From Sediminispirochaeta smaragdinae DSM 11293 (GTDB lineage: Bacteria > Spirochaetota > Spirochaetia > DSM-16054 > Sediminispirochaetaceae): 64,000 bases of DNA. Every line of letters starts with the position of its first letter. The stretch's first letter is position 1. Location: positions 2,418,001 to 2,482,000 of the forward strand of contig NC_014364.1 in NCBI RefSeq assembly GCF_000143985.1, written 5' to 3'. Position numbers and translations under genes: made by a program. Below the pieces are notes generated by a model that was given only the letters and a program-made list of their open reading frames with translations, had not been told where the DNA came from and did no database searches. Shown here piece by piece: positions 51,521 to 55,776 of the stretch.

Positions 51521-51556
51521 ATTGATCATACTCTCAAATCATTGCACGATTGGGGA

Positions 51557-52126
51557 ATGAGATATAGAAGGACTATAGCATGTTTTTTCCTTTTTGTCAT
51601 AGTCGTTCCACTACCGGTTGAAGCCAGAGAAATCATCTTCTCCACAGCTGGGGAGGGCTCTGTCGCTTTCCTTGATACCGATAAATTCGGTTCGGCTTGT
51701 GCAGGTCGACTGGGAGGGGGTGTTGGATCATGTTACGGTTTCCGCGAAAAGAAAGAGGAATTTACTCTTTCCCCTACCGTTACCCTATCCTATTTTGGAT
51801 CAAGCCGTTCAAGCGTCACCGATAATATTGTTATCTACCGGGGCTTTCACACTTTGCGTCTTGCGTTGGGATTGGATTTTTCCATTCCCACCATCCCCAT
51901 TATGATGAACATCGCCGTCGGCACAAACATTGCAAAGTACACAGATACGGCAAATTATTTCTTTTTTCCTGATCTGCAGTGCATATTTTTTCGGGAAATC
52001 GACGCTCTTTCTCGGAAGAAAAGCACCTGGGATATTGGGCTTCCCGTTCGGCTCTCCCTACGCAACGATATGGATGTAGACCTCTCGGCCGGTATTGCTT
52101 TCCGGCTCAATCTCTTTCTGTTTTGA
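51557..52126 (+). CDS. Secreted beta-barrel-like hypothetical protein
   Basis: 189-aa exported protein with a signal peptide at about residues 1-23 (RYRRTIACFFLFVIVVPLPVEA). The mature part alternates hydrophobic strands (TLRLALGLDF, NIAVGTNIAKY, GLPVRLSLRNDMDVDLSAGIAFRLNLFLF) and ends in Phe, as outer-membrane beta-barrels do. I assign no family. The chosen ATG 51557 lacks a spaced Shine-Dalgarno; TTG 51542 is possible. Confidence 0.7.
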   Translation: MRYRRTIACFFLFVIVVPLPVEAREIIFSTAGEGSVAFLDTDKFGSACAGRLGGGVGSCYGFREKKEEFTLSPTVTLSYFGSSRSSVTDNIVIYRGFHTLRLALGLDFSIPTIPIMMNIAVGTNIAKYTDTANYFFFPDLQCIFFREIDALSRKKSTWDIGLPVRLSLRNDMDVDLSAGIAFRLNLFLF

Positions 52127-52175: not shown

Positions 52176-52367
52176 ATGACTGAACGAATAGGAGATTACT
52201 TTGTTCGCCTTGAGCTACTTTCTTTCGAGCAGGCGGAGCAAGTCCTGGCCGTGCAGCAAGAGCAGCCCAACCGACGTTTCGGCGAAATAGCCGTCGAACT
52301 CGGTTTCATCGGAGAGGAGGATATCGAATCCTACAAGCGCTACTGTGCGGAAAAGGATGGCTCATGA
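52176..52367 (+). CDS. Stand-alone MshEN/GspE-N-like mini-protein
   Basis: 63-aa protein with GGAGGAG 1-2 nt before the ATG. It is built from two half-repeats resembling the 24-residue motif of MshEN (RLGxxLVxxGxxxxxxLxxxLxxQ). The first runs from R5 to Q28 and keeps R1, G3, V7, L21 and Q24. The second begins RFGEIAVELGFIGEEDIESYK and keeps R1, G3, V7, G10 and Ile17. In MshE-type ATPases this module binds cyclic di-GMP. Here no ATPase domain follows; instead the stop overlaps the TrkA_C gene. The c-di-GMP role is inference. Confidence 0.65.
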   Translation: MTERIGDYFVRLELLSFEQAEQVLAVQQEQPNRRFGEIAVELGFIGEEDIESYKRYCAEKDGS

Positions 52368-53173
52368 TTGCGCTACTTTCTTTCTTCGTTATTCTTTTAT
52401 TATCGCTTTCGATCGTGCGGATTGCAGCAATCATGCTTCAGCTTACAGGTCTTTCTGCAGATACGGCACGATTCCAGGCCCGCTCCGCCTTTACCGGTAC
52501 AGGATTCACCACACGCGAATCGGAAATGATCATTGGCCATCCTGTAAGGCGAAGGATCATCATGGGACTCATGCTCATTGGTAATCTCGGACTTGTGACC
52601 TTCGTTTCGTCTCTTGTCCTTACCTTTTTAAGGGCTCAATCCGCACTTGAAATGGCAAGCACAGGGGCTATACTCATAGGAGGACTCCTGCTTCTCTTTT
52701 TCGTAAGCAAAAGCAGAATCCTTGATTCTCTTTTGAGTAAAATAATCACTCGATTACTCAGGCGTTGGACAAAACTTCATACGACGGATTATGATGGTTT
52801 GTTGAACCTTTCCGGCGATTATGAGGTGATAAAATCTCTTGTAGGTCCTGACAGTTGGTGTACGGAAAGAAGTCTTGCAGAACTTCAGTTGAGCGATGAA
52901 GGAGTTCTAGTACTTGGAATATACCGGCAGGACGGTTATTTCATAGGCTCGCCAAAGGGTTCGACCTTTATCTATGATGGAGACGAATTGATTCTCTACG
53001 GACGAGATGAACGGATTCGTACTCTTACAGACAGGAAGGCGGGAGAGAAAGGTGATACGGAACATCGTGAAGCCGTAGATGCTCAAAATAAGATCGAAGG
53101 GAAGCGACCGGCGCCCCTTACTATCTCCTCACGAAAGGGGTTTCGAGGTTTTTTTAGGAAACGAGAGTACTGA
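52364..53173 (+). CDS. Membrane protein with TrkA_C (RCK_C) domain
   Basis: 269-aa protein. TM1 lies at about residues 3-26, and two further helices at about 63-90 and 97-117. Between TM1 and TM2 is RSAFTGTGFTTRESEMIIGHPVRRRII, a conserved block of a widespread TrkA_C membrane family that loosely recalls Trk/Ktr pore loops. The C-terminal TrkA_C domain (about residues 165-230: SLAELQLSDEGVLVLGIYRQDGYFIGSPKGSTFIYDGDELILYG) binds ligands in K+ channels and transporters. It overlaps the mini-protein by 4 nt. Ion transport is suspected, not shown. Confidence 0.82.
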   Translation: MIALLSFFVILLLSLSIVRIAAIMLQLTGLSADTARFQARSAFTGTGFTTRESEMIIGHPVRRRIIMGLMLIGNLGLVTFVSSLVLTFLRAQSALEMASTGAILIGGLLLLFFVSKSRILDSLLSKIITRLLRRWTKLHTTDYDGLLNLSGDYEVIKSLVGPDSWCTERSLAELQLSDEGVLVLGIYRQDGYFIGSPKGSTFIYDGDELILYGRDERIRTLTDRKAGEKGDTEHREAVDAQNKIEGKRPAPLTISSRKGFRGFFRKREY

Positions 53174-53177
53174 TATA

Positions 53178-54884
53178 ATGATGCTGCCTAATATACACAT
53201 AAAGAGAAACAAGTTCTTGCTCCTTTGTTGTCTGCTCCTTCCTGTAATAACAGCTTCGGGTGATGAGCTTCGGAAGGTGCGAGTTCAACTTAAATGGACA
53301 CACCAGTTTCAGTTTGCCGGTTTCTATGCAGCGATAGATCAATGCTATTATGCAAAGAGAGGTTTAAAAGTAGAACTGAGGGAGGGAAACCCGGAGATAA
53401 GGCCAACCAATGAGGTAGTCTCTCGGAGAGCAGACTTCGGTATCAATACGACCGATCTTATTGTCCATAGGGCCCTTGGCAAGCCAATTGTTATTCTTGC
53501 ACCAATATTCCAACATAGTTCTCAGGTGGTAGCGGTCAGCGGGAAATCCGACATCTATGAACCCTGCAATCTTGAAGGGAAAAGCCTGATGCTTTCGGGA
53601 GACGGTGAGGCATCAATCCTGGCGATGTTTAGATCTCAAGAAATCACAGATATCAGGATCGTACCTCACAGTTGGGATATCATGGACCTGGTAAACGGAA
53701 AGGTCGATGCAATGAGTGTATACCTCACAGGGGAAGTGTACACTCTTCGTCGGTTAAAACTCCCCTTCCGCATTCTTCGCCCAGAAAACTACGGGATAGA
53801 TTTCTACGGCGATGTCCTTTTCACCAGTGAAGCACTAGCGACCGAGGATGCCGACCTCGTCAATCGATTTCTCACTGCAACCTTGGAAGGTTGGCAGTAT
53901 GCGCTCAAGAACAAGGAAGCCATGATGGATCTCATCATCGAAAAATACGGCTACCATGATAGTCTTGAACGCCTCAGATACGAATCGGATATGATTTCCA
54001 CCCTCATGGGTGAGGGAATCGTCCGACCAGGCCACTCCAGTACATCACGGTGGCAACATATCATCGATACCTATGACTCTCTTGGCATGCTCAGTCGACC
54101 GGTAGATATCAAGCAGATCCTTTTTCAGCGAAGTCCGAAACTTTCTCATACGCAAAGAACGGCAATATTTCTTCTCTTAACGGCATTGCTTGCTCTTTTC
54201 CTGTTTTTCGTATTGTCCAGGTTTTTTACCGCCACACTCTGGCGCGAGATGGAGCATAAGGTCGGAAGGCAAAACGAACTTGATACGTTCATTAAGTTCT
54301 GCCTTCTCACCAATACAGAGCTGCCGCAGACAGTACACCGTCGGGTTATCGATAATCTTCAGATTATCGATAATATCATTCCAGTTGCAGAATCAGTCAC
54401 GCAAAAAAACAGCCACCATGAAAATCGTAAAAATATAGAACACATAGATCTCTGTTCCTATCTGCATGATCTTGTCAGCCTGACCGACAGAAATTTCAAT
54501 GAAGAGGAAAGTAGAACAATAGTTAACGTTCCCCGTTTTCCGGTTATCGTACCCATCGAACTGGCTGTCCCCATAGGACTCATTACCGTCGAACTCCATA
54601 CAAACGCCCTGAAACACACCTCTGCCAAAGAGGGGAAAATCAGGATCACGTTAAAACAAGAAGAAAATGAGATTTGTACGCTTTCGGTCGGAGACAGGGG
54701 GGCAGGTATGGATGAAAAACTTTTTCATCATAAGCGGACAAAAACAACAGGACTGCCGCTCATCCAATTATTGACAAAGCAAATAGGCGGCAGCCTTGAA
54801 GTTTCCAGCCGCAACGGTACATCGATCACCCTTCGATTTCCCCTAAGAAAGCAGAAGGAAAAGACAATCGGTATCCGTTCTTGA
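53178..54884 (+). CDS. NMT1/THI5-like periplasmic sensor fused to HisKA_2 histidine kinase
   Basis: 568-aa sensor kinase. After a signal/anchor segment (about residues 9-26) comes an ABC-type NMT1-like binding domain (RVQLKWTHQFQFAGFYAAIDQCYYAKRGLKVELREG) through about residue 300. A membrane helix follows (about 330-350). The kinase has the HisKA_2 phosphoacceptor VHRRVIDNLQII with His387, and ATPase boxes VELHTNALKHT, VGDRGAGMD and the glycine-rich TTGLPLIQLL. No response regulator is adjacent, so the partner is unknown. ATG 53178 is 5 nt after the TrkA_C stop. Confidence 0.88.
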   Translation: MMLPNIHIKRNKFLLLCCLLLPVITASGDELRKVRVQLKWTHQFQFAGFYAAIDQCYYAKRGLKVELREGNPEIRPTNEVVSRRADFGINTTDLIVHRALGKPIVILAPIFQHSSQVVAVSGKSDIYEPCNLEGKSLMLSGDGEASILAMFRSQEITDIRIVPHSWDIMDLVNGKVDAMSVYLTGEVYTLRRLKLPFRILRPENYGIDFYGDVLFTSEALATEDADLVNRFLTATLEGWQYALKNKEAMMDLIIEKYGYHDSLERLRYESDMISTLMGEGIVRPGHSSTSRWQHIIDTYDSLGMLSRPVDIKQILFQRSPKLSHTQRTAIFLLLTALLALFLFFVLSRFFTATLWREMEHKVGRQNELDTFIKFCLLTNTELPQTVHRRVIDNLQIIDNIIPVAESVTQKNSHHENRKNIEHIDLCSYLHDLVSLTDRNFNEEESRTIVNVPRFPVIVPIELAVPIGLITVELHTNALKHTSAKEGKIRITLKQEENEICTLSVGDRGAGMDEKLFHHKRTKTTGLPLIQLLTKQIGGSLEVSSRNGTSITLRFPLRKQKEKTIGIRS

Positions 54885-54915: not shown

Positions 54916-55776
54916 ATGAATCAGCGTCGAATAAGCATTCTTTGTCTTTCGGTAGGTTTCACCCTCGTCTCCTGTAGCGTGGATATCAACTTTCCCGAGC
55001 GTTATGCCCTGGTCTACGGAGTGGCCGACTACCCCGATGGCTATAACGATCTCACCTATACCGTCAACGATGCCGATTCCATGGCCGATTTATTCGAAGA
55101 GAAGGGCTATATCGTTAGAAAGAGAACTGACAGCGAAGTTACCGCATCCGCCATACAGAGTGACATCGAGGCCCTCGATGTACCGAAAAACGCTCTTTTG
55201 CTCTTCTACTTTTCCGGGCACGGTACCTCCGACGATGATGAATCCTATATCGTCTGCTGTAATGATACAGGATCGGATGCAGCTTTTATCAGCGGCACCA
55301 CCCTCGCCTCCTGGCTCGCCAAGGTTCCCTGCAATAAGAAGGTGGTGATCCTCGATTCCTGCTATGCGGCAGGCCTTATCGGCGAAGGCTATTCTGAGGA
55401 TGGGTATCCCGACGACTGGGACGGGGGCAGCAGCTTTGCCTTCTCTCTCAGCGAAACCATAGAAAACTACTTCTCCTCTCCCTCGTCGAGCGGAATTTCC
55501 TATGATGATGCCATCGTACTTGCCGCTGCAGGAAGTGATGAAAAAAGCTTTGAAGGAGGGACCGTTGGCCACGGTTATTTTACCTACGGACTGCTTCGGG
55601 GAGCGGTTCACGGCGACGACGATGGGGACGGCTACCTATCGACCCTGGAGCTCTACGACTATGCCAGAGATTACATCGAAGGACTATCCTTTCTCACTAC
55701 CGATGGAACAGTTCACTATTACCTGCCCCACATTTCGGGAGGCCCTGTCGACTTTATTCTTTTCGAGATGAAGTAG
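54916..55776 (+). CDS. Caspase-like (C14) lipoprotein with EF-hand
   Basis: 286-aa lipoprotein (lipobox TLVSC, Cys20). The caspase/metacaspase fold has ALVYGVADYPD near the start, the catalytic His102 in YFSGHGTSDDD, and Cys149 in VVILDSCYAAG. A C-terminal loop DDDGDGYLSTLE (residues 234-245) has the EF-hand spacing (Asp 1, 3, 5; Gly 6; Glu 12), suggesting calcium control. Both catalytic residues are intact. Location outside the inner membrane is predicted from the lipobox. It may be co-transcribed with the sensor kinase 31 nt upstream. Confidence 0.9.
   Translation: MNQRRISILCLSVGFTLVSCSVDINFPERYALVYGVADYPDGYNDLTYTVNDADSMADLFEEKGYIVRKRTDSEVTASAIQSDIEALDVPKNALLLFYFSGHGTSDDDESYIVCCNDTGSDAAFISGTTLASWLAKVPCNKKVVILDSCYAAGLIGEGYSEDGYPDDWDGGSSFAFSLSETIENYFSSPSSSGISYDDAIVLAAAGSDEKSFEGGTVGHGYFTYGLLRGAVHGDDDGDGYLSTLELYDYARDYIEGLSFLTTDGTVHYYLPHISGGPVDFILFEMK

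Follow-up and report, generated by a model that had tools for sequence, protein, structure and literature searches.

A free-standing MshEN-type mini-protein encoded upstream of a TrkA_C membrane protein in Sediminispirochaeta: a candidate c-di-GMP-sensing subunit for potassium transport

Most descriptions of MshEN concern a regulatory domain joined to others in one polypeptide. Isolated MshEN_N (residues 1 to 62) binds c-di-GMP with a KD of 0.35 µM (PMC5013675), so that a protein of the size considered here would be sufficient in principle. Studies of PilF, which binds with high affinity, allow R, K or L at position 1 and give an extended consensus, (R/K/L)LG; changing either Gln alone gives a KD of 0.46 to 0.95 µM, and changing both abolishes binding (PMC11731258). 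Binding has been lost in two MshEN-type domains, PilF GSPII-A and XpsE (PMC12002112, PMC5013675). In Leptospira interrogans, a 2026 survey reports a single MshEN protein, GspE (PMC12943098).

The window, by which we mean the whole 64-kb stretch of DNA that was analysed, carries an open reading frame for a 63-aa protein on the plus strand at 52176 to 52367 (stop included), preceded closely by a strong ribosome site of the AGGAGG type. The first-pass annotation had described this frame as made up mostly of two MshEN-like motifs, and both are present. Judged against the motif defined in PMC5013675, motif I (RIGDYFVRLELLSFEQAEQVLAVQ; residues 4 to 27, plus strand, 52185 to 52256) and motif II (RFGEIAVELGFIGEEDIESYKRYC; residues 34 to 57, plus strand, 52275 to 52346) form a tandem of 24-residue motifs, separated by a spacer of six residues versus the canonical five. 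Motif I keeps R1, G3, V7, L21 and Q24, motif II keeps R1, G3, V7 and G10, and Glu stands at position 10 of the first and Cys at position 24 of the second, all as originally described. That description omitted the longer spacer, the Ala at L17 of motif I, and the Phe at L2 (a family-wide change) and Lys at L21 of motif II. Because of Ala at L17 in motif I and of Lys at L21 and Cys at Q24 in motif II, the mini-protein departs from the strict c-di-GMP-binding MshEN consensus of six contact residues in both motifs.

The mini-protein scores 38.9 bits against NCBIfam NF053729 (MshE-related c-di-GMP domain; curated cut-off, 38) and has no match in Pfam. A sequence search of the PDB returns MshE (5htl) with an E value of 0.003, and profile matches to PilF, PilB and MshE reach 1.5e-8 at best. 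From a 38-row alignment, AlphaFold2 predicts an MshEN_N-type four-helix bundle with a mean pLDDT of 93.9. The top Foldseek match of this model in the PDB is c-di-GMP-bound MshE (5htl_B; TM 0.83, rmsd 1.0), and MshE or PilF GSPII-B, each with bound c-di-GMP, accounts for every one of the first 11 matches, the E values being weak, as expected at 63 residues. The suggestion of a free-standing MshEN-type protein is borne out by the curated model and the predicted fold, and the 63-aa protein is, on its sequence and modelled structure, a complete solitary MshEN_N domain belonging to a spirochaete family.

Codon comparison with the second Sediminispirochaeta species finds one residue of the 63 replaced, along with eight synonymous substitutions (dN 0.007, dS 0.22, dN/dS about 0.03), and the gene is under purifying selection. 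The reading that the frame is spurious or its motifs a product of chance draws on the short length, the imperfect motifs and the missing Pfam match; it is refuted by the NF053729 match, the confident fold, the presence of the family in more than 100 genomes and the dN/dS ratio, which reduce its probability to a negligible level. The stop of the mini-protein does overlap the start of the membrane protein, as had been claimed: TGA at 52365 to 52367 and the ATG beginning at 52364 share the 4-bp ATGA at 52364 to 52367 on the plus strand, an arrangement from which translational coupling of the two genes would be expected. This overlap is conserved in both Sediminispirochaeta species, and the 49-nt leader before the mini-protein start is identical in the two. 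A search of the 64-kb window at gathering thresholds gave no match to known RNA families, c-di-GMP riboswitches included.

Relatives of the mini-protein were found in 74 of 198 genomes of the class by a single-sequence search and in 104 of 395 by a profile search, with up to eight copies per genome, and nearly all of them are free-standing frames of 55 to 100 aa. In one genome with eight copies, two same-strand mini-protein genes lie within about 1 kb of each other (L207, G237). A degenerate-pattern scan of the genomes of 84,980 species recovered free-standing forms only in spirochaetes, all other matches being parts of larger proteins; this restriction is based on that one scan and on class-level searches, which may miss rarer forms elsewhere. 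All 38 aligned family members match NF053729 at an E value of 0.01 or lower. A set of 68 free-standing members sharing less than 80% identity shows no variation at G3 and Q24 in motif I or at F2, G3 and A6 in motif II. At position 1, 60 of the sequences have R or K in motif I, and 57 have L, K or R in motif II. Q24 of motif II is mostly missing throughout the 68, and Lys at L21 of motif II occurs in a single member, the 63-aa Sediminispirochaeta protein. None of the 43 genomes with one GGDEF gene or fewer encodes a mini-protein, against 74 of the 155 with at least two, a trend that holds inside genome-size classes and for which genome size and lineage are confounders.

The invariant ligand residues, a position 1 that fits the extended consensus, and the binding retained by single-Gln PilF make the family a plausible c-di-GMP receptor as judged from its sequences. 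The 63-aa member would be weaker than most of the family, with a weakened second half-site, and its binding may be weak or absent, given Lys at L21 and Cys at Q24 of motif II and Ala at L17 of motif I. We consider it improbable that the protein is a degenerate MshEN fold that has lost c-di-GMP binding and serves its partner without any ligand, as an assembly factor or an adaptor between proteins. Such a loss has a precedent in PilF GSPII-A and XpsE (PMC12002112, PMC5013675) and would suit a family that mostly lacks Q24 of motif II, with Lys at L21 in the member studied here. However, folding alone is a poor explanation for the invariance of motif I Q24 and of both G3 residues in 68 sequences, single-Gln variants retain binding (PMC11731258), and mini-proteins are missing from genomes that have fewer than two GGDEF genes.

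The overlapping gene (52364 to 53173, plus strand) encodes a 269-aa membrane protein with a C-terminal TrkA_C (RCK_C) domain, in agreement with the first-pass annotation: PF02080 matches at 37.1 bits against a cut-off of 27, and all 12 orthologues match as well. The domain spans residues 150 to 226 (52811 to 53041, plus strand) and resembles RCK_C structures with Z scores of about 8.6 to 11.8, several of these structures containing c-di-AMP. Residues 1 to 91 (52364 to 52636, plus strand) comprise a helix, a FQARSAFTGTGFTT segment and a second helix, an order reminiscent of an M1-P-M2 pore. This part superimposes on the S5-P-S6 region of SthK with a Z score of 8.7 and an rmsd of 1.8, values within the range of common helical arrangements, and hhalign places residues 29 to 88 on the P-loops of TrkH with low probability. 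The partner segment FQARSAFTGTGF is nearly invariant. Taken together, the resemblance to a K+-channel-like M1-P-M2 pore is suggestive only. A TrkH/KtrB match (PF02386) was absent from the partner at E values up to 1, with one orthologue at 0.0076, and identification of the partner as a TrkH/KtrB transporter was dropped for want of a family match. That the partner functions in K+ transport is supported by an operon in another genome (G054), where the gene for TrkH begins 5 bp downstream of that for the partner's orthologue (L233:7578 onward) and a KtrA-like protein is encoded next.

Orthologues of the TrkA_C partner occur in 12 of 395 genomes of the class, and a mini-protein stands beside the partner at two of these 12 loci, both in Sediminispirochaeta species. 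At the ten other loci, no mini-protein was found within the stretches examined (5 to 17 kb). Searched for in other spirochaetes, as the first-pass annotation had suggested, the pair recurred in the second Sediminispirochaeta species and was missing from the ten remaining orthologous loci, and conservation of the pair across spirochaetes is ruled out. Upstream of the mini-protein, a 194-aa, probably secreted protein is encoded at 51542 to 52126 (plus strand), and in the sister genus (G046) the gene for its homologue comes immediately before that for TrkA_C. The order there is DUF445, secreted protein, TrkA_C protein and caspase-like protein, with about 30 bp in place of the mini-protein. Since the sister genus keeps this gene order without the mini-protein, sequence comparison points to a probable gain in Sediminispirochaeta, with loss in the sister genus as an alternative. 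On the 3' side of the TrkA_C gene, positions 53175 to 54884 of the window encode a protein in which an NMT1/THI5-like substrate-binding domain is combined with an ATPase domain of the histidine-kinase type, and this gene is missing from the sister-genus locus; positions 54916 to 55776 encode a putative caspase-like (C14) lipoprotein that is conserved there.

This history allows a possible, though not our favoured, explanation: a solitary MshEN gene whose product acts elsewhere in the cell, as seems to be the case for many family members, would by chance have inserted in front of the partner gene in the ancestor of Sediminispirochaeta, and the overlap would do no more than place both genes on one transcript. 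The sister genus, with the same gene order but no mini-protein, fits this account. So do the nearest relatives of the 63-aa protein (54 to 62% identical), which adjoin unrelated genes, for example those for a tRNA synthetase or a MATE-like transporter, and the diverse partners found in other branches of the family. Insertion by chance does not readily account for the overlap and the 49-nt leader, fully conserved in two species, or for the two other cases in which mini-protein genes came independently to precede K+ channel genes directly, with no K+ channel elsewhere nearby.

These further placements involve SthK-type and MthK-like channels in two unrelated families. An SthK orthologue lies 6 to 9 bp downstream of a mini-protein in five species of one genus (relatives at an E value of 4e-117), and an MthK-like RCK channel overlaps the mini-protein stop in one genome. 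In one of the SthK operons (G061, L241:2298-6050), the order is receiver domain, CheC/CheX-like protein, PAS-GGDEF protein, mini-protein and SthK orthologue. Channel profiles detected no further K+ channel among about 777 other genes (783 genes in all, from 109 mini-protein loci). With the window pair excluded, at least two channel contexts among 11 independent directly-downstream contexts would be expected by chance with a probability of about 8e-4, a rough figure that uses a background upper bound of 3/777 and hand-counted contexts and was calculated post hoc. The three channel-linked branches occupy separate parts of the family tree; from these separate TrkA_C, SthK-type and MthK-like placements, pairing with K+ channel or pore-like genes arose independently at least three times. 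Each K+ channel pairing is lineage-specific, since a mini-protein neighbours five of the 30 best SthK relatives and one of the 30 best MthK-like relatives. The SthK-branch mini-proteins score 27 to 28 bits against NF053729, below its curated cut-off.

Neighbours of the family were surveyed at the first 40 mini-protein loci and then in about 60 regions. A lack of conserved context, as read from the first 40 loci, was overturned by the second set, in which conserved neighbours differ from branch to branch of the family. Of the partners found, the most widely conserved is a bifunctional nuclease (BFN_dom plus UVR motif), encoded directly downstream of the mini-protein at 11 loci in four spirochaete families. 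An inositol-phosphatase-like gene adjoins the mini-protein at eight loci in one family, and FliG lies directly upstream at six loci in one family, overlapping it in four, which makes a link to flagellar motor control possible. Malic enzyme is encoded upstream of the mini-protein at two loci (L282, L283), and a mini-MshEN is fused to the C terminus of NAD malic enzyme in three related genomes (L130:1548-3098, L201, L202). As a clue to function, the fusion is explained by the adjacency of malic enzyme, mini-protein and nuclease in relatives, and it is silent on ion transport. Other mini-proteins have no conserved neighbour.

Our main reading, to which we assign a probability of roughly 0.42, is that the mini-protein is a dissociable MshEN domain acting on its TrkA_C partner. 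Solitary MshEN domains would act in trans, without fusion to their targets, and the 63-aa protein would be co-produced with, and most likely act on, the adjacent K+-pore-like/RCK_C membrane protein. Occupancy by c-di-GMP would alter its contact with the cytosolic side or the RCK ring of the partner, and the altered contact would tune K+ flux; what we infer here is the binding of the ligand, the contact between the two proteins and the direction in which the effect would go. A sensor for ion transport is supported by the finding that mini-protein genes came to lie immediately before K+-pore or pore-like genes three times independently, by the PAS-GGDEF cyclase immediately 5' of the mini-protein in one SthK operon and by the tracking of diguanylate cyclases by mini-protein occurrence, the last of these weakened by the confounding noted above. 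The sensor model is also weakened by the restriction of the pair to one genus and by the TrkA_C, SthK and MthK-like relatives that mostly lack a mini-protein. The many mini-proteins beside nuclease, inositol-phosphatase-like, FliG or malic enzyme genes, or beside no conserved neighbour, count against it too, as do the deviant motif residues of the 63-aa member, the low scores of the SthK branch and the weak pore similarity. The earlier idea of an ion-transport sensor subunit thus emerges weaker for the TrkA_C pair and stronger, on indirect support, as a general pattern. In its broadest form, in which spirochaetes control K+ channels by a dissociable c-di-GMP-sensing MshEN subunit recruited to K+-pore proteins of at least three unrelated kinds (the TrkA_C pore-like protein, SthK and the MthK-like channel), we regard it as rather unlikely.

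If true, such control would link c-di-GMP, best known for the control of biofilm formation and motility, to membrane potential and osmotic state. Roughly one in four of the sampled Spirochaetia genomes encodes separate MshEN domains, which provide candidate c-di-GMP receptors in a group for which few are known. Their recurrence beside K+ channels, once together with a diguanylate cyclase, offers a testable link between c-di-GMP and ion transport, for which the many solved structures of SthK would be useful. In the collection of papers searched, none joins c-di-GMP, a potassium channel and MshEN.

Compared with known channel systems, the partner shares its C-terminal RCK_C/TrkA_C domain with KtrA, KhtT and MthK (PF02080; Z up to 11.8), but it lacks RCK_N/TrkA_N and joins RCK_C directly to a short membrane part. 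SthK is a cyclic-nucleotide-gated K+ channel of Spirochaeta thermophila whose relatives lie downstream of mini-proteins in five species; a cNMP domain is part of SthK itself, and the partner of the 63-aa mini-protein in the window is another protein. We know of no use of c-di-GMP by SthK. With Vibrio cholerae MshE (5htl) and Thermus PilF GSPII-B (8pdk), the mini-protein shares the four-helix MshEN_N fold, the tandem 24-residue motifs and most ligand residues of motif I. Unlike them, it is free-standing, with neither an MshEN_C subdomain nor a fused ATPase, and its motif II lacks Q24, has F for L at position 2 as in the whole family and, in the 63-aa member, lacks L21. MshEN domains fused to EpsG kinase, NfrB glycosyltransferase and CheA give profile matches over approximately the same 48 residues, but there the sensor lies within the target polypeptide, whereas the mini-protein is a separate gene product. 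A CheA-like kinase of the same genome (contig position 1967761) has an MshEN domain inserted before its kinase part. Single-domain PilZ adaptors are stand-alone c-di-GMP receptor domains that act in trans, as proposed here for the mini-protein, although their fold is unrelated.
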